This document shows, piece by piece, positions 10,992 through 51,695 of a stretch of DNA of 64,000 nucleotides; positions within the stretch are counted from its first letter, which is position 1, and each line of letters starts with the position of its first letter. Source of the stretch: Asterias amurensis. Lineage: Eukaryota; Echinodermata; Asteroidea; Forcipulatida; Asteriidae. The stretch spans positions 496,001-560,000 of the forward strand of contig NC_092663.1 in assembly GCF_032118995.1 (NCBI RefSeq), read 5' to 3'. The notes under the pieces were generated by a model. It ran no database searches. It saw only the letters and a program-made list of their open reading frames with translations, and had not been told where the DNA came from. Both the position numbers and the translations under genes were made by a program.

Positions 10992-11218
10992 ATGGGGACG
11001 ATTAATGAATACCGATGGAATTGCCATTTTCCTATGGATGTTTTATTAGTGTTTGTGGTAGTTCTTCAAACTGTTGGAAGGATAGAATGTTCCAATTTAG
11101 AAGTTCGTTTGCCGATGGTGAAAGAAGGTCCAATGGATAGCCTGTTTGGATTTTCTGTTGCTGAACACATTGTTTCAATGAAAGAACCAACACTATCAGA
11201 CAACTACGATGGAAGCTT
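10992..11218 (+). CDS. Integrin alpha exon 1
   Basis: Residues 1-75 plus two bases. Signal peptide (PMDVLLVFVVVLQTVG) then the start of the first propeller blade (DSLFGFSVAEH). The ATG at 10992 was chosen over an in-frame GTG two codons earlier. Donor gtgagt. Confidence 0.92.
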
Positions 11219-35200: not shown

Positions 35201-38200
35201 GGCTTATAAAAGCTTGGCAATTATAATATACAACTACAATAATGTGTGATAAGCCTAGTTAATTTAATAATGGGGTTTCACAATCAGACCACTATAAATG
35301 CGTGACATGCGCTCACTTGACGTTACACTGTCATTCTAACATCATGTATAATAATTACAGACTTATACCGTGCTCATATCTGTCTGAATAAAGACACCAA
35401 AGGTGCATGTGTTGTTTCAGCCACTTTTTTTAAAGGGTCCACTCACAGGCCTGTACGCCTTTCTTAATATTTATGCATGAGGCGATTGGCGCAACCACTG
35501 CAAGTGATGGGGGACGTGGGCCCATAGCCTCATTTTGGGGAAGAAATGTGATGTCATGCATGCATAAATATTAAGAGAGGCGTATTAGGTGGTTGATATA
35601 CGATGATGTATATAAGATTTATTGATTGATATACTGATTGATTTTTTCTTTGTTTCTCTCTCTACAGATCGATTTCATCAAGGCGTGTGCCCAGCTAGAT
35701 GGAGAATGCATCACCGATCTAGAAGTTGCGGCCTACTTGCATCTAGACGATCAGTAAGGCCATTTTAGTTTCAATTAAGTGTCCTTACTTGGTGTATCCC
35801 ACCATAAGCATAAAAAAAACCTGTGAAAATTTGAGTTCAACTGGTCATCGGAGTTGCGAGAAAATGATGAAAGAAAAAACACCCTTGTTAGACGAATTTG
35901 TGTGCTTTCAGATAGGAATAAATTAATTCTAGCTAGAATTCTTTTATTATTTTAGTGAGAAGTTACCTCTTTTTCAAAAACTACGTTACTTCAGTGAAAG
36001 TCGTTTCCCACAATATTTTATATTACCAACAGCTCCGCATTGCTCATTACCAAGTCACTTTTTAAGTGAATTTTTGTTTTGAGTAGTTGCCAAATGTGTA
36101 CCTTCCCTTTAACGCTTTGTTTTAATGGATTATTTACAGGGAAAAACCAGTTCTACGTGTTGGAGAACACAAGAATCTATTTGTAACCGTTACGGTTAGA
36201 AACAACGAAGAGCCAGCGTATGATCCTAAACTGACGATAACATTCCCAGAGATGCTGGAATTCAGTAAGATTGAGGACGATGCTTCCCAGGTATTCAAAA
36301 CCTCACTTTATTAACTTTGAAATTTGGAAAACTCTCTGTATCACACCACCACTTTTTCACTCATTTTTAGAAAACGTTTTGAGAACAGATTTGAATGTTG
36401 TGGTACAAAGACAAGATCTAGGATTTAGTGGTCATTTGTAAGCAGACCTATGTGATATTTCTGGTTGAATAAATGGGAGACATTTGGGATGCTTGGTGGC
36501 AGCAGACTTACTAGGTAAAATCTATTGTTCTCGGTCATGGTCGCATGCTCAGAACTACGTAAACAATGGTAATTTACCTGGTTAGTCTGCTGCCACCTAG
36601 CGACCCAAAGTTTCCCATTGATCTGTTCTTTGTATAACAAAAGAAAAGAAATGAAGTAATGAGAAGATTGTTTTCTTTTCTTGTAGCTTATTCGCTTTGG
36701 TTGTAATCTGTTAGAAGACAACACTACGGTGATAGTTTGTAAGTTGGGCTACCCCTACAAGGAGAAGCAATTCGTGAGTACTTAAAGGAGTTGGCTACTT
36801 TTTGTAATCACACGCACGCTCCTGGAATACGGGAAAATAAAGCGCTTCTGCGTCCCATATCCAGTGAGGCCAGAACAAATTTATCTTTGAAGCCTCATTT
36901 AAGTCAACCTTAAACAGCGGCTACAGGATAATCTCAATATTCAACTATTGCCCTTTTTGGGCCAACAGACATCTTAGATACTGATTTATAACCATTTTAC
37001 GTTTAAAATTTGCATTTGGTTATAAATATGTCAAGTCAAAAACGCTTTTTCAGTTGAGAGTAAAAAACGGCTTATCTTTTATAATCACCCCTTGACGTCA
37101 GTGACGATTTTCCCCAAACTGTGTGTTTGAACACAGTTCTCCAACTTTGTCAAACTGAGGGTGCTGTTTTCCACATCAAATAGCTGCCAATGACATCACG
37201 ATTCTTTTGTCGCGTGGGTTTGTTACACCTCACATTCTTTAGAATTTTGGCTTGTAGTGTTTCAAGGAAAAACCATTTTTACCATGTTTTAACGTGAGGT
37301 ACGAGACTCGTTGAATGTTTTTTTCTGTTTCCCGTTGACTGCATCTATTACAAAAATGTAACAACTATATATTCCTGAGCATTCTGTAGCCGCTGTTTAA
37401 GTTTAAAATTTCAGAGCGTTATTAAATGGCGAACGCACAAAATTTAGAATGTAATTTTTACACTAATTTAAGGTGGAGCGTGATGCACTGACACTCACAA
37501 TATGCAGAGTGCAATATGAAAACTGGGAGTAGGTTATGGGTAAATATCATGCTCTGGTTTGAGCATCTGATTGTTTTAACTGTCTGCAAGCACTTGAATT
37601 ACCCTTTTTGGGATCCAATAAAGATTATTGTATTTTATTGTATTTGTAATAGCGCGTACTGGAAGATAAAACACTTAATAGATAGTTCCCTCATAATGTA
37701 AATCAGCCAGCTTTACGGGCAATTTGGAATACAATGCCATGTGTTTTTTGCGCAAGAATAACGTGCAGCACGCGCACATTTCACAAAACTCGTTGCCTGA
37801 CTGGTTACTTGACACGCCTGCAAGCCAAAATGCAATTTGCCCGTAAATATAATAATAATAATAATGATTAATAATTTGGGGGGGGGGAGGTAATAATCCT
37901 AACTTGCATCTAAGAGCTGAATTGCGAAGGACGCGGCTACAAGGTGTTTGAGAAGCAGGCATATAAGGGCGCCCATCAACCCATTATGACCACAAGGAAC
38001 AGCCAATGGCGGTTATGCAACTTATCGTTACAAATTGTGTTTTATTTTTGATAACAGGAAGCATTCACGTTGAAGTTTGACACAAGGGACGTTCCATCTG
38101 ATGCTAGTAACTTTACCATCAGAATGTCAGCAACATCGTAAGTCACTTAATCGAGAGTATTGAAGTTTTTAAATTCAGTTTTTAAATTCAGCCCTTGTGG

Positions 38201-41200
38201 TTTATATTGATTTCAGGCCTTTTCATGATTGTATAGACACATGTATCTGTTGTTGTTGTTGTTGTTGTGGTTTTTTGTTATCTCCTGCCCTTATTTTCCA
38301 TCATCAATATTAACCACAAAGGAAACTGACTAAGTAAAATTTTAAATGATTTTTTGGGTGAGACAAAGAATTTACTAGCGTGCTTTGCTCTACCAACTAA
38401 GCTACATGTATCTAGCCCTCTAGTGGCGGTGTCCCTATTTTGTCAATATCTTTGTTCGGGGGTGCCAGTCAGAAGCCATACAACCGTTAACTGCCGTGTA
38501 GCCGGGGATCACACCCAAATTACGATACAACTTGGGAAGCGGCTGCCAGGGGATCACCTTAAGGGGATGCGACTTTTTGTTTCAGATATCAATATAAACC
38601 ACAAGGGAAACTGACTGGGTGAAAAAAAAGTTTCCATTCTTAAATTTTTCTTTAGGAGTTAAATCTTGGCGTATGTCTCATTTAACAAGGATGTTATCAG
38701 TGGTCAAAGCTGGCCTGTTTTACATTTCACTTACCTATGCATTTTTAAACATTGCATATTTCTATATTTGCTTGTCATTTTTTGTTTGTAATTTTATGCT
38801 GAATTGACACTGATTTTTATAACTTCCTTGTTAATTCTGTAATTACTTTGTGTTTAAAGAGATTTTTTTAATGTTCCTCTGCAAGCGCCATGAAGCATGT
38901 TTATCATTATTTGGATTATAATTTTATTCAGGACTAACCGAGACGCTAATCCCGATGATAACCAAGTCAGTCTCTTTGCTGAAGTACAAAGCATCACAGA
39001 TATTCAAATTATAGGGTAAGTTATTGGATTTGTGTATTGTCTGAAAACCTCTTTGGTGACTCCAACATTACTGATCCCACTCATTCATTCATTCAGTATT
39101 GGTTTGTTCTTTAAAAAAACAAATTCCCATGGCAACCGTAGGTTGAATTACAGGAAAATATACTAAGACTAAAATTAGAACAAAATTACTTGTTAAAGGG
39201 TCTATGTCGTTTGTGTAGGACAAAAAACATGATATCTACATTTTTACACTAAACTTACACAGTTTGAAGATAATGATAGTGGAACGCTTCCCTGAAAATT
39301 TTACTTGCTGAGGTGCTGTAATTTTAGAGAAATAAGAACAACAATGTAATGAAAATCATTTTCATCTCTGTGATCATGAAACGGAAATTATTTTAGCTTG
39401 TAAAAGACATTGTTTTAATCATTTCTAAAAAACTACAGTACCTCAGCAAGTAATATTTTAAGGAAAGCTTTTATTTCTACTATCATTATCTTCAAACAGT
39501 GTAAGTTTAAAGGGAAGTTACCTGTTTGGTAATTATCAAAGACCAGTCTTTTCACTTGGTGTATCCCATCATATGCATATAACAACAAGCCTGTGAAAAT
39601 TTGGGCTCAACCGGTCATCGAAGTTGCGAGAAAATATTGAAAGAAAAAACACCATTGTTGGATGAATTTGTGTGCTTTCAGATAGAAATAAAAGACTTCT
39701 AGCTAGAAGTCTTTTACTATCGTTTCCCACAATGGTTTATACTATCAACAGCTCTCCAACGCTTGTTACCAACTCAGTTTTTAAGTTAATACTTGTTATG
39801 AGGAATTACCAAGCGTGTACCATCCCCTTAATGTAAATCTTTGGATGTTGTGTTTTGTGTTACAAAAAGTATCCAAATCCTATAAGGAGAGACAATATTT
39901 AAATATGTAAAAGCAAATTGTTTTTCATAGGACAAAGTGTATTGCTTAGGGGTGTCATAAAGGGGGATTCGAACCCACACTCTGGTGACTTAGCACCATA
40001 ACTTGAATTCTATGCTCTTAACCACTCAGCCATGACAATCTATATAAGAACTAGTTATTATTATTAAACACAATATGGTTTTCTTATGACAGTGAGACCA
40101 ATAAGGAGCAGTACACATTTGAAGGAGATGTAATTGGAGAGAGTGCAATGACCTACACAGATGAGATTGGTGATGAAGTTATACATACCTGGACTGTGAG
40201 TATAGTTTAGTTGCTTGAGCAACAGTAATTTGCTATTATGACTTTAATGTACCCATGGCCAAAATCAAATTCAAGTTCTGGTGGTTAAGTCATTGTTTCT
40301 CTTCACCCAGGGGTACCTACGAGGGTACAGGTTGATATTGTGAATGAAACAGCCTTTGGAGCGGTAAAAACTGTTGTATACTCCCAACGCAGCTGAGAAA
40401 CATTTTTTAAAAAGGGATTTTGGACTTATGTCCAGGGCACTAATGTAAAGCCTATTGATAGGGTTATCGTGAAATGCGCTATATAAGAATTTGTTATCAT
40501 TAAAACATAGGATTCAAATTGCCTCTAGCTACCGGACAATCTCAGTAGTCTGGTTGGTTAGACACCACTCTGGAATTGCAAGGGTCGTGGGTTCGAATCC
40601 ACAGGTTCCAACAACGAGAACGAAAACGAGAATGTTAACAATGCACACCCTCAGTTGGTTGGATGAGCGTGGGTTTATTCTGCAGGGAGCAATTCAACCA
40701 ATAGAATGCATTCTCTTTGCGTCGTGATCGTTGCAGTGTGACTCGGCCTTAAAGGGTCTGGGTACTTTTTGTAGGACGAAAAACACCAAGTCCACAGATT
40801 TACATTACACTTACACAGTATGAAGATAATGATGGTAGAAAGCTTCCCTGAAAATATTGGTTGCTGAGGAGCTGAAGTTTTTGAGAAATGAGTAAAACAA
40901 TGTCATGAAAATAATTTTCATCTCACTGATCATGAGACGAAAATTATTTTAGCTTTTAAAAACGTTTCTTTTTTTCATGACATTGTTTTACTTGTTTCTC
41001 TAAAACTACCGCACCTCAACAACTAATATTTTAAGGGAATATTTGTATTATCATTATCTTCAAACTGTGTAAGTTTAATGTAAATCTGTGAACATTGTGT
41101 TTTGTGTTAGAAAAGTACCCAAATCCTTTAAGTCTATGGAGTTTATTCATTTTTCTTTTTATAATTACAAATCTTGTGCATATTACTGGAGTGTTTGTGC

Positions 41201-44200
41201 ACCAATGATCCCAGCCGTGGATTTCACCAAACTCATTCTAGCTTAGGATTAATCCTAGGACTTAGGACGTCTTAAGTTCCGTATCCTTATACGTTAGGAC
41301 ACAATGTGCCCGTCCTAACTTAAGACGGGTTACCCGTCCTAACTCGAGATAGGATTAATCCTAGTGTTTCGTGAAATCGGCTGCAGGCACTTTGAGCTCC
41401 TCCCATGGTTTCTCTGACACCCAACTTCTAACCAAACATTTCAACAGTGGGTGATAGACCTTGTCCCGGACAGTACTTATCCGTTGGTCGTCCTGTACTA
41501 ATTTTGTCACGGGCCCATTTTCATGAAGCCTGCAGGCACAAAAAATTGCTAAACACAGAAAAGTATACGCCTCTCTTAATACTTATGCATGACGTCATAA
41601 TTCTCACCCAAAATGAGGCTATGGGCGCACATTCCCCATCACTTGCAGTGGCTGCGCCCATTGCCTCGTTTTGGATTAACATTGTAACGTACCTTATGCA
41701 TAAATAATAAGAGGGCGTATTGTTTAGAAGAATCAGGTTACCAGCCCAAATTATGTTTTGTTTGCATTGTTGTGGCTGGTGCCCAGCTCAATTTATGCTT
41801 AGCAAAGAAATTTGTCAAGCAGTATTTGCTGCTTAACAGCTTTATGAAAATGGGCCGTCGTCTTTAATCAATGTGATAGTTTAAGAGACATGGCTTGAGG
41901 TGGCAAGGTGGTTTATAAGTCAATTATAAAGTGCTTTTGATTAGCTTTCATGTGTCAACCCTGCGGTGCTTACTCGGGTGAGCCCCTGACAAGAGCTAAT
42001 CGAACAATCACCCTCTCATGGTGACAACATGCACCTGGGGCCAGCCCCAAGTGACCCACTCCACAAGCAGGGCACTTGGGGCTGACCCGGGTGAGCCCTT
42101 GGAATGACGTCGAAGCTAGTTGAACGCACCCATTGCTGAATGATCTTTGTGTTATGCTTTATGCAGGTGTATAACAATGGATCTGGTATTGTCGCAGAGT
42201 CTGTGGTGACCATTAGTTTCCCTTATGAAGTAGCCAATGGTAAATGGCTCTTATATCTGACACATAAACCAGTGGTTGAAGATAACAAGGGCCAATGTGA
42301 GATTGATCCAATCTATGTGAATGAACTCCAACTTGAGGTACGTTCTCCATCAGGTTTTTATTTGTTAACTTTGTTTTTATTTGTTAACTTTGTTTTATGC
42401 ATGTCGCCAGACACACAAGGCCTGAAGGCCACTTCAAGGTGAGGGCTACAATTTATTTTTGCCACGGGCCGTTACCACTGACTCCTGGAACAGGGTAACC
42501 CTTTTTACAGTCCATGCGGATGTAGGCTTGGGTATCATCCATCAGAAGCCTGGCTGGTAGCGCTGAAAGCACTACCTCATCAACTTTACAAAGCAATAAT
42601 GGTTAAGTGTCTTGCTGAAGGACAAAAGTGTCACGACCGGGACTTGAACCCACACTCTAAGACTCTGCTGATCAAAAACAGCGGCCAATTTCATAGAGCG
42701 GCTTAAGCACAAAATTTGTTAAAGCACGAAAATTAACTTGCGTATTATACTCATGTTACTGACCAAAATTCCATGCCATATACATTGCTTGTGACTGGTA
42801 TTTAGCTGCTGTTTACTTAGCATAACAATTGAGTGGAGTCTTGGCCAGTAATCTAATTTTACTAAGCAAAGATTTTTTAGCTTACTCAAATTTTGTACTT
42901 TAAGCAGCTCTATGAAGTTGGGCCCAGAGCTTGAATCTGGTGCTCTGAAACGCTAGGCCCTGACACGCCACAACTGTCATTGCTTTATTTCACTCAAGAC
43001 ACAACAATGCTTTTAGACGGTGTCGATAGATGATGTGACATCACATGTTTTGTGGAAGTGTCATGGATGAGCGGCTAAGAACACCAAATTCAAACTCTTG
43101 TGTTTGTGATTAGCAGAGTATGGTTTCGAGTCCCAGTTGTGACATTTGTGTTCTTAAACAAGACACTTAACCATTGCTTGTACTTAGATGGGACGTAAAG
43201 CTGTTGGTCCCGTGTGTTGTGTATCGCAGGTTAAAGAACCCAGTGCACTTATCATAAAAAGAAGGGTTTCGCCCTGGTGTTCCTGGATTGATTGGCTGCA
43301 TATTGCATTATTAAAGGATTTGGGTACTTTTTGTAGGACACAAAACACAATGTCCACTGATTTACATTAAACTCACACAGTTTAAAGATGATGATAATAG
43401 AAAGCTTCCCTTGAAATATTAGTTGCTGAGGTGCTGTACATGTAGTCTTTGAGAAATGAGTAAAACAATGTCATGAAAATACATTGTTACATGCTAAAAT
43501 AATTTTTGTCTCATAATCACTGAGACAAAAATTATTTTCATGACATTGTTTTACTCATTTCTCAAAAACTACAGCACCTCAGCAAGTAATATTTTTAGGG
43601 AAGCTTTCTATAATATCATTATCGTCAAACTGTGTAAGTTAAGTGTAATTCTGTGGACATTGTGTTTTTTGTTCTACTAAAAGTACATATACCCTTTAAA
43701 CACAGTGTCATTAGAAGTCTAGTTATCTAAACATTTGAATGAAATGAATGATTTGATTCTTTTCCAGGAACGTCCAGAAGAACTCACTATCGTTCAACTG
43801 ACCACTGAAGCTTCACCCCTTGTAGGAAGGTCTCAATCCCCTAATGATGAGTCCCCAACAGATGGATCTAAGACGACACGGTCACCTAAAGGTAGAAGGA
43901 GACGCCGAGATGTGGTGAATGAGGAACAAGGTGCACAGAAAAGCAGAGCGCAGGAACAACAGGGGCAGATATTGACACTGGTAACTACAACTACAATCGC
44001 GACCGTATCTCATATATAAATCACTCTCTAACCAAGCTCCAACTAATCTTTGCAACCTTCTCCACACCCGCCAGTCTTTGTATAATTTAAGATCCACTTC
44101 AGCTGTTGTATTGAATGCCCCACGATCACGTACCAATGTAGTATCTAAATTGCTTGTTACCAAGTAAGTTTTTATGCTAACAATTATTTTGAGTAATTAC

Positions 44201-47200
44201 CAATAGTGTCCAGTACCTTTAAGTCATCAACACTTATTGATCAGGTAGTTAAACTCCGTCCAACAATAATATTTCAGTAAATTCTGTTATGGCTGAAGAC
44301 GAGACAGTTCGCATGTCTTTTGTTATTTGTGCTTTTTTATCAATACTTCCATCTTTGATTACAGAATTGTTACGACAAGACGGCCCGTTGCTTTGAATTC
44401 AAATGTTATATGGAGCGTCTTGGAGAAGAAGATGAAGCAAAGATTTATGTGAAATCACGACTTTGGAAAAGTACCTTCCTCGAGGTGAGTGTTGTGTTAA
44501 GAATTTTGAATCGATAATATCAGTATTTTGTTCTGCAAATTTAAGACTGATCTGTAGGATTTGAAACTTTGCTTGGTGGAATGTAGACTGTTAGTCTAAC
44601 TAAGAGAGGTTTGTGGCGTGTCCTGGCCTAGCGGTTAAGAGCATCGGACTCGAGCTCTAATGTTCAGCAGAGTGTGGGTTGGTGTGTCACCTGTGACCTT
44701 AAGCAACACACTTAACCATGATGCTTTTTTCCTTCAGATGGGACGTAAAGCCTTTGGTCCCTTTTGTTGTGTAACGCATGTAAAAGAACCCAGTGCACTT
44801 ATCGAAAAAGAAGGGTTTGCCCCAGTGTAACCTGGTCTGATCAGCAGCAAATTGCGCCACAGCACCTTATAAAACATTACATGGTGCTCTAAAAAGATAA
44901 GGTCTCACAATTCAAACGTAGTCCCACATCTTGCAGGAAATACTGTATGTTACAGTGCTATGAGCGTCGCTGAGTAACGGATGCGCAACACCATGTGAAT
45001 ATCTCCTTGGAGTACTGTTGGTTCTGAATAGAACTGGTGGTTGACAACCCAACGTTACAATCAGTATGCTCTGATTGACTTCAGAAGAATGCTTTAAAAC
45101 TGATTTGTTTTTATGTTACAGGATTACATCAATGCTAAAGAGGTGTTGGTTACGTCTGTTGGAAAAATAGACATCCTGAATGCTCCCTTTTTGACTCAAA
45201 GTAATGATGACAACGATGTGTTCAATGTAAGAATTATTCCTTTGTTTCAGTAAAATCAAGTTTCAATCAATCAAATTATTAATATGGGTCTATATTTCCA
45301 TTGATCATTGCTCATGTAGCCAAACTGTAAGCTCTTGTAAATAGGTGAGATTTGAGTGACGTCTTAAAAGTAGGGGCGCGGTAACCCCAACTGTGTTTGC
45401 TTCTAGGAATAAATAATGCAGACATGTACGAACAGGAGCGCAAGTTATGAGATGTTTTATGGAAGGTCAGTAGGTTGGTCAGTTACGGTCAGTCACATGA
45501 ATTCAGACATTGGTACACGAGCAGCATGATCTTGTAATGAATTCGTGTCTTAAAGGCAGTGGACACTATAGACCTTATGCACATGACGTCATTTCAGTAG
45601 GGCACCCTAAACCTAGAGGTCAAAAGGAGGTTGTTCATTGGCCAATACTGTGCGCCGCGCGTACAAATCTGTGCGTCTTGATTGTTTCGTCACCATTTTT
45701 CCTCTTAGATGGCGGCTGGATGACGTCAATGCATAAGGTCTATTGGTAAATACTCAAAATAATTGATAGCATAAAACCTTTCTGGGAAAACTGTTGCATA
45801 TCCTGTTGCATATCCTGACTATTGATGTGTTTTTGTTGACCTTGTATTATTACAGTTGACAATGGAAGTAAAACCTAGCAGTGTGACCCTACCTCCACCA
45901 GAACCCTTAGCTTGGTGGATCATCCTAGTGGCTGTCTTAGTTGGTATCATCATTCTTATTATTCTCATTATTTTACTATGGAAGGTAAGTCAGATTTTTA
46001 TTTTTTTATTTTTTTATTATTTTTTATTATTATTCAATGGTTTATTAAACATTTATTCAATGCCAGCAGCAGAATAACATGAACAGTTACATATCAAAAG
46101 TTTGGAGTAAAACATCACATTAATAATTAAAATGGCCTTCAATCTTACAAAAAACGGAGATGAACTGTTGGCTCTAAATGGGAAGAGAAAAGTTACATCA
46201 TTAAAAAACTTAGTAAAAGTTTACATATAACAATCTATAGCTATGGTTACAGAAATGATAAATCTAGTCATGCGAAAGTTGTTGTGAACATTTTATGGGA
46301 CTGCAGATTATTTTATTTAATTCAATTTTGTTCGGGAGGGGGGTAAAAGCTTTCAAATGAGCTCGTATATGTTCTCATGTTTTTTATGTGTCAAGCCTGA
46401 GATTTCTTAATCCATGCGCCATATTTTACCGCGCGAGGGCGCTATAAATATTTTTTATCACCTCCTGGGGTATACGCGATTTGCCGTGCACAGATTAATA
46501 GAAGTTTTGTCAGTTTTGTTTCGCTGTAGTTTAAATTTGCTTTAGAGGTGGAGTACAACGGCTCCTTTAAAACTCTTATTGTTCGTGATGGATTAGATGT
46601 TTGTGGACCAGTCATTAAAAAATGTTTTGGGTATGAATGAATACGATTGAGAGCGCCCTCAGGCGGTCAAAAATAGAGGGAGCAAGGCCATTTTCATTTA
46701 GCAAAAGGCATATCCGTTGGAAAATCTTACGTTGCCTTGGATCGGTCTTTGAAAAGTGTTGTAACCGGGTTTTTTTGTTTTTGGTTTTTTTTTTGGTAGA
46801 AAGATGTTGTAAAAGTAGAGTACAATGATCCACACAAACATGCCTCGAAATTGCATGGTTTTCCTTTTACCTCGTCAACTAACACGGTCTGCCATTTATG
46901 GGAGTCAAGGCCTCTATGTGAAAATTTTCTTGTGAAAATGGCATTGTTGTTCAAGTTATCAGAGTGTAGGTAAAAGGAAAAGAGTCAATGAAGTAATGCT
47001 GTTTTGCTCTTTGTGCAATTTCTGGTCTTTCAATTCAATTCAATTCATCAACATTTATTTACACCAAGGATAATCACTTTAGAAAAATCAAACGTCTGAA
47101 AGCACACAACTTCATGTGACAAGGGTGTTTTTTCTTTAATACTTATTTATAATATATATTTTTTACCCTAACTAAACATTATTTACACAAAATTCTTTGT

Positions 47201-50200
47201 GCTCACCAGTAAATACTACAGCTGGCCTGTCGTGCAATATTTTCCTTCTTTAGCCATTGCCACGTAGCAAGTTTTAATTGAGGTTGTCTTGGTAATATGA
47301 GTATTAATGACAATGGACACTATTGGTAATTATTCAAAATAATTATTAGCATAGAACCTTACTTGGTAACAAGTAATGGGGAGAGGTTGATAGTATAAAA
47401 CATTGTGAGAAACGGCTCCCTCTGAAGTGACAAAGTTTTTGAGAAAGAATTAAGTTTCCACGAATTTGATTTCCAGACCTTAGATTTAGATTGTGAGGTC
47501 ACAACTTCATGTGACAAAGGTGTTTATTCTTTCATTATTATCTCGCTTCTTCGACGACCAATTGAGCTCAAATTTTCACAGGTTTGTTATTTAGTGTATA
47601 TGTTGAGATACACCAAGTGAGAAGACTGGTCTTTAGCAATTACCAATAGTGTCCCTTGTCTTTAACAGACTTTAGTTAGAGTGTAGTACCGGTAGTAACC
47701 ATTCCCTATTTAGTATTAGTAATTCTTCCCTTTTTAATTTTAGTAAACCTTCCCTCTTTAATGTAGTAACCAATGGGTCCCTGTGGTTTATGCTGCTCTC
47801 ACACTGTGGTGGATATGCTAGCCAATGTGCTTACCAATGGAAATATTTGACAATTGCTCAAACTTCGCAGCATTCCCCATGTCTTCGTAAGGGTTGGTAA
47901 CAAATTCTCCACCTCCTTAGGAAGATTGGTCAATTTAGGAAGCGCCCCCTAAATTTCAGTAAATATTGTGAAGACAGTCATTCGCCGTCGATTTTTGTAA
48001 GCATTGTAAAGCCATTGGCAACATTGGTAAAGCGTGCGTTAGCTCATTTGCAACATTGGCAACAGTCGTTAGCTATTCGTAAGGCATCGACAAGCATTAG
48101 CAAGCTTTGGTAAGCATTTGTAATATATTCGTGAGATATTGGTAAGGAGAGGTCGAGGGACGACCGAGGGGTGACCGAGATGAAAATACTCACTATCCAA
48201 TCGCAATTTTTGGGCGAATTCACTGCAGAATTCAAATATTCATATTCACAAGAATATTGGCCATAGTGTGAGAGCAGCATAAGAATGATGTATTGAATTA
48301 ATTGACTGTTTATAGGCTTCTTTGCATAATGTAACTCCAATCCATTAATATAACAAGAAATCCACTGATTCTACATCTATAAATTGCCTTTTTTATCCAA
48401 AATGTCTTCTAGAAATTGTTTCCCATAAATTGTTTAAAGCCATTATACACTTTCGGAACAGAATTACAACTTACTTACAGGGTTTACAGAAGGCAATGGT
48501 GAAAGACTTCTCTTGAAATATTATTCCATGAAATGCTTTACTTTTTGAGAAAACATTAAAACAATTATCAATTCTCGACATCGAGAACTACGGATTTATT
48601 TTAAACACAATGTCATGATACGGCAAAACATGCGGAAAGAAGGGTGGGTTTTCCCGTTATTTTCTCCCGACTCGGATGACCGATTGAGCCTAAATTTTCA
48701 CAGGTTTGTTATTTCATATATAAGTTGTGATACACAAAGTGTGGGCCTTTGGACAATACTGTTTACCAAAAGTGTAAATGGCTTTAAAATCACATTCCCC
48801 TGATGTAATGTGATAATAATTGTAATTGCTGAATAACTAATGCCACTATCCTTTTATTTACCCCATATCTTTTTTTATTTTCAATGCTCCATGTGCATGC
48901 GTCCAGGTTGGATTTTTCCGTCGACCAGGAACAAGATCGGGTGGCCCAGTGCGTACTAAATAAACTACCATAAATAGTGACAATATTATGTAACTAACCC
49001 ATGATAGTGTGGAATTGCACATTGATTTATGCCTTGATATTTGCTTTACGATTGGTTTGAAACTCCACTGCTGCACACCATATTCTTGTTTTTGTTTAAA
49101 CCTGTTTGAATTTGCACATTTTACTAATTTGTGTTTTGCTTTATACAAACTGAAACTGATGAGACCAATGATAGATTTGAAAGGTTCACCAGTCTTTTAA
49201 TTCTGAAACAGATGTTTTGATGAGTTAAGATAGACTTCTGTCTCATGTTAACAACTAAACCTGTTTTTTGACAGGAAATTGAACGATGTCTTCCCACGAA
49301 TGACATTGATAGCTTGGAGATAATATCTTCTTTATTATTAGAAGTTATCTCTCCAGCGAGTGGAATACTGAAAAATATAGCACTTCTGCAGCCCAGATCT
49401 TCCACGAGCGCGCATGTTATATCGAATTTATCTTCCAGTCTCACGTGCAACGCGCAAAGTTTAAAATTTCAGGACGCTATTTCGTGCACAAAGTTTAGAA
49501 TGCGGAGCGTGGCGCATTGACACTCGTAATATGCACTGTTCAATTTTATAAACCACCCTCCAGTTCGAGCATCTTATTGGTGGATTATCGCGTAACATGG
49601 TTTGAGAGGGTGACTAGCCGATATTACCTCCCCGATCAATAGCACCTGGAGATGACGTCGCGCAAATAGCTCTTGGGGAACTATTACTTGTCACGCGCAT
49701 TTACCACTTGCCTGAATACTCACGTGTGCGCATTGTAATTAACATCTGGCACGTGGTGATGAATGGACCAATGAGAACTTGACTCTCGGTCATGAATATT
49801 TATGAGGTATTGTAAAACTTTATACTACACCTTTGCCCGGGTAATAGTTAAAAATGCAGGACGGTTCTTTTCAGAACTGAAAAATTAACCTCGGAACATC
49901 CGATAAATCTACTCCGCGATAGTAGAATAAAGAAAGACAATTTAAGAACAAACTTTTCTTGGCAAGTAGATACACACATGGTGTTACTGCGAACCAAATT
50001 TTTATGTTTATCTTTACCATAAATACTGTTGTTAGGTTTTAGTATGGGTAATGTTGTTTACAGTGACTGTTACAAATCTCTCTCATGTGGTTTCCTCAAG
50101 GACCTGTACTTTTGCAATCTTGTAATGAAGGTCTTAGCATCTTAAGTGTTTTCAATCTATAAGCATGAGTTTCTTCTAGCGGTTCTGATTTGGAATGAAT

Positions 50201-51010
50201 TGTCTTCTGGTTTTCTTGTTTTCAATAACTTTTCTATTATTCTTTATTGGTAAATGGAGGTTAAAAAAGTTACACATTAAATTATTCTTTCTTCCCACAA
50301 TATTTTGTTTTCTTTTTCTACACAACAATACATGAGTAAGTTCAAAAGATGTTGTGTTTAGGTTAGGTTTGTGAACATAAAGCAAATTCAGGTTTGCCCT
50401 GCCTTTTTTGGTCTCTATTATATAGTTTCCCTGACAACAGAAGTAGCAGCATGTCTGACTACTCCTTGATATTTGACAAAATATTCAAAATGTTGTGGAA
50501 AAGCTTTTTCTTGAAGTTGCTCTGCACGAATTAGGGTGATGGTTTTGTGCCATACGGCAGATACAAAAAGCTACTTCAGATGATGCCTAATGATGCCTGT
50601 ATTTACTGCACTAAATTTTGTATAGAGTGGTTCAATCAATCAATCAATCGTGGCCGAGCGGTTAAAAGCACCGCTATCGAACTCAAGCTGTGACCTGTTA
50701 AAGGGAGTATGGGTTCAGGAGCCATGACACTTCACCACTGCTTCATCCTTCGGATGGGACGTAAAGCTGTAGATCCTGTGTGTTGTTGTAAAAACTATTC
50801 ATAAATACCTCAGACAGTTTCGCTATTCCTATTGGTGGAGAGCGCGTCACGTGCTTATGACCGGTAAAAAGTGTTGAAACATGGGCGTGGCACGCGTGCT
50901 TGCACCTGTGCTTATAAGACAGTTTCTTCATTCCTATTGGTCAAGAGCAACATCAGGGACAGCGAGTATAATCTTTCATTATGAAGGCTGCACTAGAAAG
51001 GAAGAAGAAG

Positions 51011-51057
<47 letters not shown>

Positions 51058-51695
51058 AGAATTGTGTCATTGCTTGATATCCACAGTTTAGGAAATTGAA
51101 GTTTTAATCCATAGATTCCATGATGTGTTCTAGATATCTTCTTGAATGTCATTCCAGTTGTTATACATGTAGTTAAACGAAAATCATCATTCCAGTAACA
51201 CACTACATGTAAACACGAACAATATCACAAATTTAATGTGTGTGTCTTTTAGCATTGGTGATACCATGAACGTTTGGTTTGTGTTTTTGGTGACCGTTGA
51301 CCTTTGTCTGCTTTGACCTATTTCAGGTCAGGACAGAATCAAAGTGCTTTTGGCTGAGTTCCATTATGCAATGTGCATGAAACAATAGAATGTTATACAG
51401 AAATGTATAATATTTCTGTATAATATTATACAGAAATATTACACATTTCTGTATAATATTTTCCATTCTTGTTCTTCATTTTTCTCTTTTATCTTCTGTT
51501 CTTCTTCTCTTTTCAATGTAGCAGTGATGAATTCTTATCAAATGACATTGTTGTTGTTCTGTTTTGTTTCTGTAGTGTGGATTCTTTGAGAGGAAGACCA
51601 TGGGATACAAGTATGCAACAGTTACACAGAAGACTGCTGGTGGTAATGCAGCTACTGAAAAGACTGCTTACTACGATGAGAAATACTTCACATAG
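10992..51695 (+). CDS. Integrin alpha subunit, laminin-binding (alpha3/6/7, PS1) type; whole gene
   Basis: Type I membrane receptor subunit that would pair with an integrin beta chain and bind extracellular matrix. Twenty-five constitutive exons, all with consistent phase, encode residues 1-1084, followed by one of two alternative tails (18 or 39 residues), for 1102 or 1123 residues in total, typical for the family. Seen: signal peptide; NLEVRLPMVKEGPMDSLFGF opening; FG-GAP repeats with calcium loops DLDGDGFDD, DLNIDGYED and DLDGNQYPD; no inserted I domain; furin site RRRRRD (about 938-943); membrane helix about 1061-1082. From family knowledge, WWIILVA, LLWK-CGFF, NGKWLLYL and SRLWKSTFLE match vertebrate alpha6 most closely, which suggests laminin binding (inference). 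Introns hold many MITEs and two minisatellites. AATAAA signals at 52780 and 55029 could end the long form. Confidence 0.95.
11421..11735. mobile_element. Two MITE family H copies, 132 bp each, in intron 1
   Basis: Copies at 11421-11552 and 11604-11735, with arms GGAAAAGTTTCCGTATGGCG and CGCCATACGGAAAGTTATCC. The second copy is flanked by a perfect 8-bp duplication TTGAAATG (11596-11603 and 11736-11743). Other copies are at 60245-60376 and 63567-63690, with a piece at 36329-36378. The 8-bp duplication suggests the hAT superfamily. Confidence 0.85.
12797..13638 (+). mobile_element. Family F: THAP-bearing TTAA element, probable Kolobok remnant
   Basis: Ends TTAA-AGTCACCAGGAAATA and TATTTTGTCA-like inner right arm closing ACTTCCAGGTGACT-TTAA. 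At 13088 a frame starts MSTRCIAAGCSITTKDGVSL, the beginning of a THAP zinc-finger domain (C-x4-C and following), and breaks after about 31 codons. A further piece reads PSCFENPEYTTHFDMK, like the HFE-SCF part of THAP domains, then DAIPS. THAP domain plus TTAA target fits Kolobok transposons. The body is missing, so it is non-autonomous. Other pieces: 9916-10668 and 26105-26435. Confidence 0.7.
13829..13960. mobile_element. MITE family I copy
   Basis: AATGGGAGACTTTCAGGACG ... GGTAAGTCTGCTGCCACC; the right tip is missing. A TACATGTACATG palindrome follows at about 13985-14020. Confidence 0.75.
14150..14578. mobile_element. MITE family B copy, long hairpin
   Basis: Near-palindromic element: TTTACATTAAACTTACAG in one arm, TGTGTAAGTTTAATGTAAAT in the other, with central GACGAAAATTATTTTAGC. 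Other B copies: 19533-19900, 24453-24610 (half), 30522-30755 (part), 39193-39885 (interrupted), 40749-41131 and 43311-43698. Confidence 0.8.
14824..15179. mobile_element. MITE family A copy
   Basis: TTAA-AGGCAGTGGACACTAT ... CCAATAGTGTCCAGTATCT-TTAA type ends. Interior with CTCGCAACTTCGAC and TGAGAAATGGC blocks is shared by all A copies. Family A is the most abundant element in the window (about a dozen copies). Confidence 0.85.
15480..15945. mobile_element. Inverted-repeat element, intron 1
   Basis: TACTCAGAGCTCCGG near 15512 and CCGGAGCTCTGAGTAC near 15902 form inverted arms around a GC-richer interior than the surroundings. No second copy seen. Confidence 0.5.
15946..18349. other. Intron 1 interior with a local tandem duplication
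   Basis: 17130-17515 holds two copies of a ~175-bp unit (both include GATAGCCCCATGGTATGAGT and AAGAATGACAGTTATTTT). The unit contains a CCCTTGCTAAAGTGCTCTC motif that recurs in the element at 62885-63010. The rest is plain AT-rich intron. Confidence 0.5.
18350..18610 (+). repeat. Dispersed ~270-bp repeat (family Q)
   Basis: Shared with 22650-22915 and 50800-50990. Common blocks: CTATTCCTATTGGTGGAGAG, GTGTTGAAACATGGGCGTG, GCTTATAAGACAGTTTCTTC, TTATAAGGAGTTGTTTAC. Carries ATTGG and CACGTG-like motifs. Superfamily not identified. Confidence 0.6.
19219..19343 (+). CDS. Integrin alpha exon 2
   Basis: Residues 76-117. ILAGAPTYDDPD ... VFKCPLSTYVDDC, the first FG-GAP strand and disulfide loop. Acceptor attcag, donor gtaact, phase 1 at its end. 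Confidence 0.93.
19533..20234. mobile_element. Family B and family A MITEs joined at one TTAA
   Basis: B spans 19533-19900 and A spans 19897-20234. The TTAA at 19897-19900 is at once the right end of B (CCCAAATCCTTTAA) and the left end of A (TTAAAGGCACAGGACAC). Confidence 0.8.
20347..20426 (+). CDS. Integrin alpha exon 3
   Basis: Residues 118-144. NKTDQWLGVTVRSQGQGGRV, matching the conserved WLGVxVxSQGPGGKV blade of integrin alphas. Ends in phase 0. Confidence 0.94.
20497..20652. mobile_element. Palindromic MITE, 156 bp
   Basis: TAGATGGATTGCAATACGCG ... CGCGTACTGCAATCCATCTA, near-perfect inverted ends with a GC-rich interior. Only copy noticed. Confidence 0.75.
20680..20995 (+). mobile_element. 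SINE S1: tail fragment plus fuller copy
   Basis: 20682-20765 is a tail (ATGCAAATTTAACAT end). 20815-20995 is a copy with A-box GGTCTAGTTGGTAAAGACAC and B-box GGGTTTGAATCCCACC. tRNA-derived. Confidence 0.75.
21040..21505. mobile_element. Inverted-repeat element, diverged
   Basis: GAGAGGTTTTGTAAGTCTAT near 21043 and CGCTTGCGAAACCTCTAT near 21488 form imperfect inverted ends about 450 bp apart. Confidence 0.5.
21593..21781 (+). CDS. Integrin alpha exon 4
   Basis: Residues 145-207. TCAHRYKV start and GYCQAGTGFYISQ end; matches the C-AH-Y and FGxCQxG region of the propeller. Donor gtaaag, phase 0. Confidence 0.94.
22150..22422. repeat. (AAAC)n microsatellite beside a tRNA-like SINE head
   Basis: 22231-22422 is about 48 units of AAAC, with one TTAATT interruption at 22386. 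Directly left, on the minus strand, is a tRNA-like head (GATAGCTCAGTTGGTAGAGC and TTCAAATCC, about 22226-22150), called S3. The AAAC run sits at the 5' side of that head rather than at a poly-A tail. Confidence 0.85.
22650..22915 (+). repeat. Dispersed repeat family Q copy
   Basis: Second copy of the repeat at 18350, about 80% alike by eye. Confidence 0.6.
23008..23170. mobile_element. Hairpin MITE that seeds a minisatellite
   Basis: Arms GGTTTAAACCCCCAAGGCCT / AGGCCTCGTTGGGTTTAAAC and outer arms GGGACTCAAAGTGTGTTGAA / CACACATTGATTCCC. Its right terminal ~35 bp is the unit of the array that follows. Confidence 0.8.
23136..24259 (+). repeat. 35-bp minisatellite, about 32 units, ending at integrin exon 5
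   Basis: Unit begins TTAGTTGAAAACCTCTTGAC and continues CACACATTGATTCCC. Left units are mostly GACC...GAGTCCC, right units mostly CACC...GATTGCC, so variants are spatially sorted. A few units lack the G of TTAG. The last partial unit (CCCTTATTGAAACAG) contains the splice acceptor of exon 5. Confidence 0.95.
24265..24433 (+). CDS. Integrin alpha exon 5
   Basis: Residues 208-263. EFIAGIPGAGDWRGGIF, a FG-GAP strand, and ends SYLG. The acceptor lies inside the last unit of the minisatellite. Donor gtaagt. Confidence 0.93.
24453..24785. mobile_element. Half family B MITE plus a family N-related piece
   Basis: TTAAAGGGTAAATTTTT at 24453 starts the left arm of B, which stops near 24610. 24620-24785 shares GCCATGAAATTGGGCCC and AAGCGCAGAATTC with the element nested at 58755-58925. 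Confidence 0.6.
25055..25250 (+). CDS. Integrin alpha exon 6
   Basis: Residues 264-328. FSVTSGKFGDKFMVASGAPR, then SFGYEVCSADLDGDG: the first calcium-binding loop, completed by the next exon (FDD). Confidence 0.95.
25251..25912. other. Intron 6: SINE tail and MITE A fragment
   Basis: 25715-25800 matches the 3' tail of SINE S2 (reverse), shared with 33410-33525. 25845-25881 is a right end of family A. Remainder AT-rich. Confidence 0.5.
25913..26006 (+). CDS. Integrin alpha exon 7
   Basis: Residues 329-360. FDDLIVGAPIYYN ... GGRVYIYLNK, FG-GAP/calcium blade. Donor gtaagt, phase 0. Confidence 0.95.
26105..26435 (+). mobile_element. Family F (THAP element) 5' fragment
   Basis: TTAA-AGTCACCTGGAAATATAA, the same GAGGCAGACTTTGCCTCGAT block, and a start codon followed by STTCIAA before the copy breaks off. 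Matches 12797-13110. Confidence 0.65.
26515..26912 (+). mobile_element. SINE S1 copies
   Basis: 26515-26610 is a partial body (ATGCCTGTGGATTTCTTTCA). 26700-26912 is a full copy with A-box GGTATAGTTGGTAAGACACT, B-box GGGTTCAAATCCCACC and tail ATGCAAATTTAACATC, ending just before exon 8. Confidence 0.75.
26935..27040 (+). CDS. Integrin alpha exon 8
   Basis: Residues 361-395. DSMFGMSIANLGDLNIDGYE: the second calcium loop and FG-GAP strand. Donor gtaagt, phase 1. Confidence 0.95.
27430..27955 (+). mobile_element. SINE S1 copies, one split by a palindromic MITE
   Basis: 27430-27545 is a tail. 27600-27748 is a head and body that resumes at 27924 (TATGGGTAAAAA). Between them, 27750-27923 is a ~174-bp palindrome (AAGCCCGGTTCATACTTCCT ... 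AGGAAGTACGAAGAGGGCTT) inserted at a TA. Confidence 0.75.
27971..28223 (+). CDS. Integrin alpha exon 9
   Basis: Residues 396-479. IAIGAPYENNGVGAVYIYHG and FGYSLSGGLDLDGNQYPDL: blades 6-7 and the third calcium loop. The TTGAG|gtaagt donor ends in phase 2. Confidence 0.95.
28371..29413 (+). repeat. 76-bp minisatellite, 13 units, in integrin intron 9
   Basis: Unit includes CCTAACTTAGGATGGGTTCA, TCCTACGTCTTCAGATAGGG and AACTAGTCCTAAACCCTAAG. Units are almost identical (a few C/T and G/A changes), so the array is young. The flank GCCGATTTCACAAAACGCTA and the unit itself match one arm of the MITE at 55342-55507 and 41221-41390 (family M). Confidence 0.95.
29614..29709 (+). CDS. Integrin alpha exon 10
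   Basis: Residues 480-511. ARPIISITAELQLRESQIDP: end of propeller (VxRSRPVI motif) into the thigh domain. Acceptor catgaag after a long T run. Confidence 0.92.
29871..29932 (+). CDS. Integrin alpha exon 11
   Basis: Residues 512-532. SYVQVQMKYECNADRF, thigh domain. 62 bp, donor gtaagt. Confidence 0.9.
29995..30285 (+). mobile_element. SINE-like dispersed repeat
   Basis: Contains CAGTTCAATTCCCCGCC (B-box-like), CTCTACTGCGCAACAAGGG and a TTATTATTAT end. Reads like a tRNA-derived SINE; no second copy in the window, so identification is tentative. Confidence 0.4.
30323..30492 (+). CDS. Integrin alpha exon 12
   Basis: Residues 533-589. VEYSIEAEEERRDMGLTSRV matches the alpha6-type thigh (LEAEKERRKSGLSSRV). 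Phase 0 donor gtaagg. Confidence 0.94.
30522..31458. other. Intron 12: MITE B part, (ATTC)n, possible LINE 3' tail
   Basis: 30522-30755 is the left arm of family B. 30881-30910 is an (ATTC)n run. 30910-31350 reads, on the minus strand, like the 3' end of a non-LTR retrotransposon, but only weakly. Confidence 0.45.
31459..31614 (+). CDS. Integrin alpha exon 13
   Basis: Residues 590-641. FTDIFRKIPFKLNYKLP and NKFAILNSQMDPSKVAE (alpha6 has LPILNSDEPKTAH here). Phase 0. Confidence 0.94.
31800..32185 (-). mobile_element. MITE family A copy
   Basis: TTAA-AGACACTGGACACTATTG ... AATAGTGTCTACTGCCT-TTAA. Inverted relative to the copy at 14824. First of four A copies in 3 kb. Confidence 0.85.
32351..32741 (+). 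mobile_element. MITE family A copy
   Basis: AGAGGCACTGGACACTATTG ... GTGTCAAGTGTCTTTAA. Left TTAA decayed to TTAG. Confidence 0.8.
32903..32929 (+). CDS. Candidate 27-nt integrin microexon (DGFSSVDFQ)
   Basis: Follows a TACTAAT branch-like motif and a ttttgacag acceptor, is open and phase 0 on both sides, and ends CAG|gtgacc (a weaker donor). It would add nine residues between VAE (exon 13) and IDF (exon 15) in the thigh/calf-1 region. The protein reads well with or without it, so it may be an alternative cassette or a false positive. Confidence 0.4.
33410..33812 (-). mobile_element. SINE S2, reverse copy
   Basis: 33600-33812 carries, on the minus strand, GTGGCCGAGCGGTTAAGAGC (A-box) and TGGGTTCGATTCCCC (B-box). 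33410-33525 is the tail. S2 heads resemble a class II tRNA (Leu/Ser type). Confidence 0.75.
33890..34276 (+). mobile_element. MITE family A copy
   Basis: TTAA-AGGTAGTGGACACTATTG ... TAGTGTCCAGTGTCT-TTAA; both TTAA intact. Confidence 0.85.
34421..34769 (+). mobile_element. MITE family A copy
   Basis: TTAA-ACGCAGTGGACACTATTC ... GGTGTCCAGTGTTT-TTAA; slightly shortened interior. Confidence 0.82.
34770..35667. other. Rest of the intron before exon 15
   Basis: 35446-35595 is a palindromic MITE (family L: GTACGCCTTTCTTAATATTT ... AATATTAAGAGAGGCGTATT), shared with 41566-41720. Otherwise plain AT-rich intron. Confidence 0.55.
35668..35753 (+). CDS. Integrin alpha exon 15
   Basis: Residues 642-669 (numbering without the microexon). 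IDFIKACAQLDGECITDLEV matches the alpha6 HFLKEGCGDDNVCNSNL disulfide segment. Phase 2. Confidence 0.94.
35775..36114 (-). mobile_element. MITE family A, subfamily A2
   Basis: TTAAGTGTCCTTACTTGGTG ... GTACCTTCCCTTTAA. Shares interior TGCGAGAAAATGATGAAAG with the A2 copy at 39507-39831. Confidence 0.75.
36140..36290 (+). CDS. Integrin alpha exon 16
   Basis: Residues 670-720. LFVTVTVRNNEEPAYDPKLT, calf-1 beta sandwich. Donor CAG|gtattc is less standard than the others. Confidence 0.92.
36472..36619. mobile_element. MITE family I copy
   Basis: AATGGGAGACATTTGG ... CCCAAAGTTTCCCATT; full-length hairpin. A short family H piece sits at 36329-36378. Confidence 0.8.
36687..36773 (+). CDS. Integrin alpha exon 17
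   Basis: Residues 721-749. FGCNLLEDNTTVIVCKLGYP; conserved cysteine pair of calf-1. Donor gtgagt. Confidence 0.93.
36910..37400. mobile_element. MITE family G (TTAA), ~490 bp
   Basis: TTAA-ACAGCGGCTACAG ... CTGTAGCCGCTGT-TTAA. 37405-37540 to its right is a separate repeat shared with 49440-49570 (AATTTCAG, GAGCGTG, TTGACACTC blocks). Confidence 0.75.
37712..37848. mobile_element. Small palindromic MITE
   Basis: TTTACGGGCAATTTGG ... GCAATTTGCCCGTAAAT ends. Confidence 0.6.
38058..38137 (+). CDS. Integrin alpha exon 18
   Basis: Residues 750-775. FTLKFDTRDVPSDASNFTIR, calf-1. Phase 2 donor gtaagt. Confidence 0.93.
38932..39015 (+). CDS. Integrin alpha exon 19
   Basis: Residues 776-803. DDNQVSLFAEVQSITDIQII, calf-1 to calf-2 link. 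Confidence 0.92.
39193..39885. mobile_element. MITE family B split by a family A2 insertion
   Basis: B runs 39193-39510 and resumes at 39828-39885. The A2 copy occupies 39507-39831 and is bounded by TTAA on both sides, whereas intact B copies read GTAAGTTTAATGTAAATC here with a single TTAA. 39935-40045 (minus) is an S2 SINE fragment. Confidence 0.9.
40093..40195 (+). CDS. Integrin alpha exon 20
   Basis: Residues 804-838. FEGDVIGESAMTYTDEIGDE matches alpha6 FGGTVVGEQAMKSEDEVG. Donor gtgagt. Confidence 0.95.
40290..42130. other. Intron 20: SINE pieces and several MITEs
   Basis: 40290-40490 S2 part; 40505-40610 S1 head; 40749-41131 full family B (TTAA both ends); 41221-41390 family M (GATTTCACCAAACTC ... 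GTTTCGTGAAATCGG), the source type of the 76-bp minisatellite. 41510-41850 is an N element (GGGCCCATTTTCATG ... ATGAAAATGGGCC) with an L palindrome nested inside (41566-41720). 41945-42130 is a family K copy, ending 36 bp before exon 21. Confidence 0.65.
42167..42337 (+). CDS. Integrin alpha exon 21
   Basis: Residues 839-895. ANGKWLLYLTHKPVVEDNKG; NGKWLLYL is identical to alpha6. Donor gtacgt. Confidence 0.95.
42440..43698. other. Intron 21: S2 SINEs, an N element, a family B MITE
   Basis: 42440-42680 reverse S2 fragment; 42685-42935 N element (CCAATTTCATAGAGCGGCTT ... AGCTCTATGAAGTTGGGCCC); 43055-43310 forward S2; 43311-43698 family B with TTAA at both ends, sitting at the truncated end of that S2. 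Confidence 0.65.
43768..43980 (+). CDS. Integrin alpha exon 22 (furin-site exon)
   Basis: Residues 896-966. A polar, low-conservation linker carrying SPKGRRRRRDVVNEEQ: five arginines at 938-942, a strong proprotein-convertase site that would split the chain into heavy and light parts, as in I-domain-less integrin alphas. Donor gtaact. Confidence 0.93.
44000..44222 (+). mobile_element. LINE 3'-ORF fragment followed by a MITE A end
   Basis: In one frame reads APTNLCNLLHTRQSLYNLRS then VVLNAPRSRTN, the C-terminal region typical of CR1/L2/Jockey-like ORF2 proteins. Truncated on both sides, beginning about 20 bp after the exon 22 donor. 44160-44222 is the right end of a family A MITE. Confidence 0.6.
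44365..44484 (+). CDS. Integrin alpha exon 23
   Basis: Residues 967-1006. NCYDKTARCFEFKCYM then VKSRLWKSTFLE (alpha6: LRSRLWNSTFLE); calf-2 cysteines. Confidence 0.95.
44614..45065 (+). mobile_element. SINE S2, longest copy
   Basis: Head CTGGCCTAGCGGTTAAGAGC, body ATGGGACGTAAAGCC and AAAGAACCCAGTGCACTTAT, then an extended tail. Lies just before exon 24. Confidence 0.75.
45122..45226 (+). CDS. Integrin alpha exon 24
   Basis: Residues 1007-1041. DYINAKEVLVTSVGKIDIL, end of calf-2. Donor gtaaga. Confidence 0.94.
45550..45790. mobile_element. MITE A fragment with a TA-flanked MITE inside
   Basis: Family A start TTAAAGGCAGTGGACACTA is interrupted at 45569-45740 by a palindrome (GACCTTATGCACATGACGTC ... 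TGACGTCAATGCATAAGGTC), then resumes TATTGGTAAATACTC. Host site CACTATTGG has a duplicated TA. Confidence 0.8.
45856..45984 (+). CDS. Integrin alpha exon 25 (membrane exon)
   Basis: Residues 1042-1084. Short extracellular stalk with PPPEP, then WWIILVAVLVGIIILIILII and LLWK, the membrane helix and its basic stop. Ends in phase 0 with AAG|gtaagt, so the GFFxR motif must come from a separate exon. Confidence 0.96.
45985..48906. other. Intron before the first tail exon
   Basis: 46732-46970 is a half copy of family D. 47304-47665 is family A (TTAA both ends). 47789-48284 is a ~495-bp inverted-repeat element (TTATGCTGCTCTCACACTGT ... ATAGTGTGAGAGCAGCATAA) with a loose internal TTGGTAAGCATT-like tandem. 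48434-48787 is family C (TTAA both ends). No further exon seen. Confidence 0.65.
48907..48963 (+). CDS. Integrin alpha alternative last exon a (short basic tail)
   Basis: Acceptor gcgtccag, phase 0, then VGFFRRPGTRSGGPVRTK and TAA at 48961. Joined to LLWK it gives K-V-GFFRR, the canonical juxtamembrane motif that binds the beta chain and talin-related regulators of activation. The rest is 12 residues, basic, without tyrosine. An AATAAA (48959-48964) overlaps the stop codon. Confidence 0.75.
   Translation, partial: VGFFRRPGTRSGGPVRTK
48964..51575. other. Stretch between the two tail exons (3' UTR of form a or intron of form b)
   Basis: 49440-49570 repeat shared with 37405-37540; 50647-50790 S2 SINE fragment; 50800-50990 repeat Q; 51012-51056 (AATC)n; 51392-51465 a perfect-looking hairpin of ACAGAAATGTATAATAT type. 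Otherwise unremarkable. Confidence 0.5.
51576..51695 (+). CDS. Integrin alpha alternative last exon b (long tyrosine-rich tail)
   Basis: Acceptor gttttgtttctgtag, phase 0, then CGFFERKTMGYKYATVTQKT and 19 more residues to TAG at 51693. With LLWK it gives K-C-GFFER, where KCGFF is the alpha3/6/7 signature. Five tyrosines (tail positions 11, 13, 32, 33, 37). Probably the conserved main form because it has the stronger acceptor and longer tail. Confidence 0.9.
   Translation, partial: CGFFERKTMGYKYATVTQKTAGGNAATEKTAYYDEKYFT

Follow-up and report, generated by a model that had tools for sequence, protein, structure and literature searches.

Two candidate alternative cytoplasmic-tail exons, each with its own GFFxR motif, in a laminin-type alpha integrin gene of the sea star Asterias amurensis

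The window, a 64-kb stretch of Asterias amurensis DNA analysed at its full length, carries on its forward strand the extracellular and transmembrane (TM) exons of an integrin alpha gene, followed by two exons that could each encode a cytoplasmic tail (Table 1). For this species, the genome paper reports 45,079,838 RNA-seq reads from nine pooled tissues (PMC10625585). The gene model was obtained by aligning an approximate human alpha6 sequence, with splicing allowed, to the 10.9–52 kb part of the window. It comprises 25 exons, 24 of which cover the extracellular and TM part, and the alignment picked the exon at 51576 as the partner of the alpha6 tail. In this partial model the TM exon counts as exon 24 out of 25, but exon numbers are unreliable, because the 5′ end (the signal-peptide part) is incomplete and one faulty junction, at 42296/43826, contains a stop codon. 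In an 843-residue part of the model, Pfam recognized the FG-GAP beta-propeller (1.1e-23) and integrin alpha Ig-like domains 1 to 3 (Integrin_A_Ig_1, 1.6e-16; Ig_2, 6.2e-21; Ig_3, 1e-15). The best PDB match of model residues 1–607 was integrin alpha-6 (7ceb, 321 bits), followed by alpha4 (219 bits), alpha5 (216 bits), alphaV (176 bits) and alphaIIb (144 bits). By these matches the window gene is a laminin-type alpha integrin (alpha3/6/7 group), nearest to alpha6 among solved structures, a class assignment drawn from PDB scores and not from a tree. Two repeats were seen elsewhere in the window: an interspersed one at 24916–25038, in the last part of the intron that precedes the exon at 25055, whose translation finds a match at 137 of 141 listed places, on many contigs, and a simple one at 22227–22391, which translates as repeated NKQT.

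The initial annotation had described a TM exon ending with LLWK in phase 0 and two downstream exons starting with VGFFRR and CGFFER, each closed by a stop, which it read as alternative tails, one of 18 residues, basic and tyrosine-free, the other of 39 residues with five tyrosines. Translation agreed with the TM boundary and with both tail exons, so named tail 1 and tail 2 here, and in each of them G-F-F-x-R directly follows the TM segment. The residue counts came out as described, with five basic and no acidic residues or tyrosines in tail 1, and six basic residues, four acidic residues and five tyrosines in tail 2. At the sequence level, the proposal of two alternative tails with a GFFxR exon each is supported for this echinoderm-type alpha integrin. 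The donor of the TM exon scores 7.79, the second highest among the 24 model donors, although comparisons with the model's splice sites, here and below, are not independent, since these sites were partly chosen by the same score matrix. GFFx[RK] occurs exactly twice in the six frames of the whole 64 kb, in tail 1 and tail 2, on a common strand and in a common register, and an AG immediately precedes both exons. Pfam contains an integrin tail model; no match to it was reported for the TM exon joined to either tail, nor for tail 2 alone.

Table 1. Features of the integrin alpha gene in the window
Feature	Position	Strand	Evidence
Laminin-type integrin alpha extracellular and TM exons	11094..45984	+	spliced alignment, Pfam, PDB match
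TM exon LTMEVKPSSVTLPPPEPLAWWIILVAVLVGIIILIILIILLWK, 129 nt, ends LLWK in phase 0, donor AAG/gtaagt	45856..45984	+	translation
Tail-1 3′ splice-site region: AG-free zone, branch-point-like sites, pyrimidine tract, TGCATG	48773..48906	+	sequence inspection
Putative tail-1 exon VGFFRRPGTRSGGPVRTK and TAA stop	48907..48963	+	translation, acceptor, AG-free zone, codon score
Possible in-frame donor CCA/GTGCGT, 42-nt cassette if used	48949..48954	+	score 1.05
AATAAA overlapping the tail-1 stop, candidate poly(A) signal	48959..48964	+	
Putative tail-2 exon CGFFERKTMGYKYATVTQKTAGGNAATEKTAYYDEKYFT and TAG stop	51576..51695	+	translation; acceptor rank 6/293 AGs

Two origins of tail 1 were considered and found unsupported. 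For an origin of either tail exon as a copy of its partner, the best local alignment between the two regions scored 23, a value that 21 of 300 shuffles also attained, and it fell within the pyrimidine tracts, outside the exons. Descent from a transposon was not suggested either, as the segment 48860–49010 matched only itself in a genome search that skipped very common words. By eye, an inverted repeat made of TACAGAAAT and ATTTCTGTA copies lies at 51395–51459, about 115–180 nt 5′ of the tail-2 acceptor.

A protein search of the genome with the exon model returned five other alpha loci with weak matches (E from 5e-5 upward), all on contig C16, near 0.89, 14.37, 14.40, 14.43 and 14.53 Mb. A search with the Pfam model Integrin_A_Ig_1, with E values of up to 1 allowed, gave the same five loci only, of which the one near 0.89 Mb (E 0.26) fell short of the cut-off and the other four passed it; the count of alpha loci may be incomplete, because this search missed the window gene itself. 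All five paralogues have a TM exon that closes on a Lys codon in phase 0 (K/gt), as in the window gene, and an xGFFxR exon follows. Three of the five have tails of 18 residues, the length of tail 1, and the fourth residue of the motif is R in two of them (g888 and g14531), giving GFFRR, and K in the other three. Unlike the window gene, each paralogue has a single AG-xGFFxR exon within the 20 kb examined downstream, and none has GFFER; E at the fourth position occurs in tail 2 alone, so it is tail 2, and not tail 1, that is unusual. The intron between the TM and tail exons measures 0.7–1.0 kb in the five paralogues as against 5.6 kb in the window gene.

The integrin genes found, in a count that may be incomplete, sit on one contig (C16, 17.75 Mb of the 491.5-Mb genome), which also holds six beta clusters near 0.93, 5.48, 9.56, 11.71, 11.75 and 11.80 Mb. 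That this reflects confinement of the search was rejected, an RBFOX query having matched many contigs. An alpha gene (~874–890 kb) and a beta gene (~909–930 kb) lie there on the same strand, with less than 20 kb between the stretches found. The four alpha loci at 14.37–14.53 Mb share one orientation, two of them have identical 18-residue tails (LGFFKRKTLDDISPPTAL), and the group looks like the product of tandem duplication.

For tail 1, we asked how often its motif would arise by chance behind an AG. On both strands of the 491.5-Mb genome, the pattern AGNNNGGNTTYTTYNNNMG (AG-NNN-GGN-TTY-TTY-NNN-MG), which omits Lys at the last position and admits two Ser codons, had 460 matches, and a reversed-pattern control had 496; at the genome-wide rate, 0.0026 matches are expected per 5,591-nt intron. 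Markov simulations of orders 1–3 gave 0.006–0.010 occurrences of AG-NNN-GFFx-R/K per intron of that length, and 0.003–0.004 when only Arg was allowed at the last position. No further AG-xGFFxR match was present on either strand of the window, none in 100 kb around the five paralogues (both strands) beyond their five tail exons, and none in 27 other loci totalling 84.6 kb, many of which contain one common repeat. These figures make it unlikely that the upstream tail is a chance match.

The region upstream of tail 1 has features of a 3′ splice site. Scored with an approximate textbook weight matrix, the tail-1 acceptor reaches 3.8 and ranks ninth among the 293 AGs of the intron, eight of which score higher; the tail acceptors of the five paralogues score above it (5.7–7.6), and the pyrimidine tract in the last 25 nt before the AG is not clean. 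Branch-point-like sequences stand at −70 (CTAAT) and −107 (CTGAT). The 134-nt AG-free zone is equalled or exceeded at 2 of the 289 intron AGs, tail 1 included, and a zone of at least 134 nt at 5 of the 3,505 AGs of the window, among which only 48907 also scores at least 3.8; because the thresholds for zone and score were fixed at the observed values, the figures amount to rankings and carry no formal significance. Such a zone is also atypical of the gene (15–112 nt at the 24 model acceptors, 23–97 nt at the five paralogue tails), and the intron AG at 49164 has a longer one (156 nt) yet shows no sign of an exon, so the AG-free zone alone proves nothing. The study of such zones in human genes is said to be that of Gooding and colleagues. 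In the available portion of that work, human exons with AG-free zones of at least 100 nt were alternative in 68 of 235 cases versus 47 expected, under a definition that, unlike ours, disregards any AG within the first 12 nt (PMC1431707). Of 532 open decoys, 14 attained the codon score of tail 1, and 31 did so once the motif was removed, suggesting a modest coding signal apart from the motif. The four lines of evidence for tail 1 (motif, acceptor, AG-free zone and codon score) are only partly independent, and tail 2 does better in both acceptor score and coding score.

The reading frames, the phases and the splice-site sequences of both tails are established, and both tails are probably spliced in vivo; the account that we consider fairly likely is a gene with two alternative terminal exons for the cytoplasmic tail, the upstream one being regulated. 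Use of the acceptor at 48907 would lead to a transcript that ends shortly after the stop, at the overlapping AATAAA, and that encodes the short, basic, tyrosine-free GFFRR tail; when this acceptor is skipped, the TM exon would be joined to 51576 to give the 39-residue GFFER tail with its five tyrosines. A terminal exon is favoured because the AATAAA overlaps the tail-1 stop and no good donor follows the stop. The AATAAA starts 2 nt ahead of the stop codon and the next one lies 965 nt further on; after the tail-2 stop the first AATAAA comes at 1,087 nt, and in the five paralogues at 490–4,245 nt. The best donor between the tail-1 stop and 49500 scores −1.19, under all 24 model donors (minimum −0.57). 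Counting against a terminal exon is the very short 3′ untranslated region, about 20–30 nt, that it implies.

The upstream exon could also be used in other ways. Between the tail-1 acceptor and 49500 there are only two plausible donors, at 48940 (0.53, frame-shifting) and at 48948 (1.05, in frame), and splicing from the latter to 51576 would turn 48907–48948 into a 42-nt cassette that preserves phase 0 on both sides and sets the two motifs one after the other (LLWK-VGFFRRPGTRSGGP-CGFFERKTMG, continuing as tail 2). This donor is the best in 48907–49500 and exceeds 5 of the 24 model donors, but it ranks only 21st among the 351 GTs of the intron, the tail-1 frame continues past it to the stop that overlaps the AATAAA, and tails of exactly 18 residues recur among the paralogues; moreover, an exon of only 42 nt whose donor is weak requires help for its recognition. 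We judge this cassette decidedly unlikely. Still less probable, and to our minds barely credible, is an arrangement of the vertebrate ITGA6 exon 25 type, in which tail 1 would be a stop-containing internal cassette with its own donor and 51576 would serve as 3′ untranslated sequence when it is included. The order of the exons fits, with a stop-containing exon upstream that is skipped to reach the downstream tail, and ITGA6 exon 25 is described, in the part of a review available, as producing a 130-nt difference that contains a stop (PMC5930856), but the good donor that such a cassette needs is missing after the tail-1 stop, where none surpasses −1.19 up to 49500.

All of these readings have the upstream exon in use, whether as a terminal exon, an in-frame cassette or a vertebrate-type cassette, and we regard its use in some form as quite probable from the sequence features. 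What opposes them is the possibility that the upstream motif arose by chance, or survives as a dead relic, and that every transcript uses 51576, in keeping with the superior acceptor and coding scores of tail 2. The motif expectation of 0.0026, the long AG-free zone, the acceptor rank of 9 in 293 and the codon score all speak against chance, and a dead relic would not be expected to retain motif, zone, acceptor and coding score together. This explanation appears unlikely to us, and we return to two alternative terminal exons as the preferred reading.

Under two alternative terminal exons, the upstream site would be the regulated one, perhaps through an RBFOX-type protein. A TGCATG, which we take to be the RBFOX motif, is found at 48894–48899, between the pyrimidine tract and the tail-1 AG. 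It was spotted post hoc and is one of 30 copies in the 64-kb window, a density at which a copy so near the acceptor is uncommon. The shorter GCATG shows no enrichment near the tail exons, with 8 copies in 45.5–52.5 kb and 65 in 64 kb. A protein query located RBFOX-like exons in the genome, at 3.36 Mb of contig C11. For ITGA6, the available part of one study names RBFOX2, PTBP1, MBNL1, RBM47 and ESRP as potential regulators of tail splicing (PMC5836074). Control of the tail-1 acceptor by an RBFOX-type protein through TGCATG is a lead and not a result.

As to function, the initial annotation had proposed that exchanging GFFRR for GFFER could make the hold on the inactive receptor tighter or looser. 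The motifs do differ, but the proposal appears weak, because G, F, F and the final Arg are retained in both tails, which differ within GFFxR at the fourth position alone. In alphaIIb, GFF and R995 are membrane-buried and the fourth residue, K994, is exposed, according to the accessible text of one paper (PMC8569584), and the available part of another describes a salt bridge from R995 to D723 of beta3 (PMC3639902). The equivalent of D723 is present in all five beta tails found (HDRREF, HDSREY, HDKREF, LDRREY and HDKREY); the tail search gave no match in the sixth beta gene cluster. With GFF and Arg retained in both tails, the alpha–beta clasp should form with either one, and as the difference in the motif is confined to an exposed position, a larger difference is expected in the distal tail. 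It is possible that E in place of R at this position affects the clasp, but the switch would mainly alter the binding partners of the distal tail and have little effect on the clasp, its most likely consequence being altered adaptor binding or phosphorylation. A bolder version, in which RNA processing selects the clasp motif itself, be it GFFRR, GFFER or the two joined by way of the 42-nt cassette, so that splicing sets the resting affinity and the exposed charge tunes the clasp, strikes us as rather improbable.

Alternative alpha-integrin tails in echinoderms did not appear in the open-licence literature, as judged from titles and the beginnings of abstracts among the matches listed, and the integrin and laminin parts of a review of the echinoderm matrix contain nothing about alpha tails (PMC10381214). 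In vertebrates, A/B tail splicing is also a property of ITGA3 and ITGA7, and GFFKR is located in the common exon, upstream of the divergence of the isoforms, a contrast that the initial annotation had drawn for alpha3, alpha6 and alpha7 alike. The portion of a review at hand bears the contrast out for alpha6, whose A and B cytoplasmic domains have the GFFKR sequence alone in common (PMC5930856), and it is for alpha6 that the contrast stands. The sea star gene resembles ITGA6 in being a laminin-type alpha whose tail would depend on which exon is joined, an upstream one that carries a stop or a downstream one. It differs in that GFFKR belongs to both alpha6 tails, whereas here the common exon ends with LLWK and the two tail exons supply one xGFFxR apiece, and in that its upstream exon, with no good donor after the stop, looks terminal and not like an internal cassette. 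Because the K/xGFFxR boundary is general in the six alpha genes found, an alternative tail inserted there must bring its own motif, which accounts for the difference from vertebrates with no need for the motif swap to have a special function.

Tail 1 also has a likeness to the tail of integrin alpha1, which in the accessible part of one paper consists of GFFKR followed by PLKKKMEK, a very short, basic post-motif sequence with no tyrosine; that tail is the sole one described there for alpha1, whereas the short sea star tail would be one of two alternatives (PMC3639902). We suggest that the sea star gene is a variant of the vertebrate A/B tail switch, with the motif placed inside each tail exon. 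Such a counterpart would suggest that tail switching in laminin receptors predates the vertebrates or arose twice. Since the common exon ends before GFFxR, the two tails would also amount to a natural experiment that parts the clasp motif from a shared TM segment.
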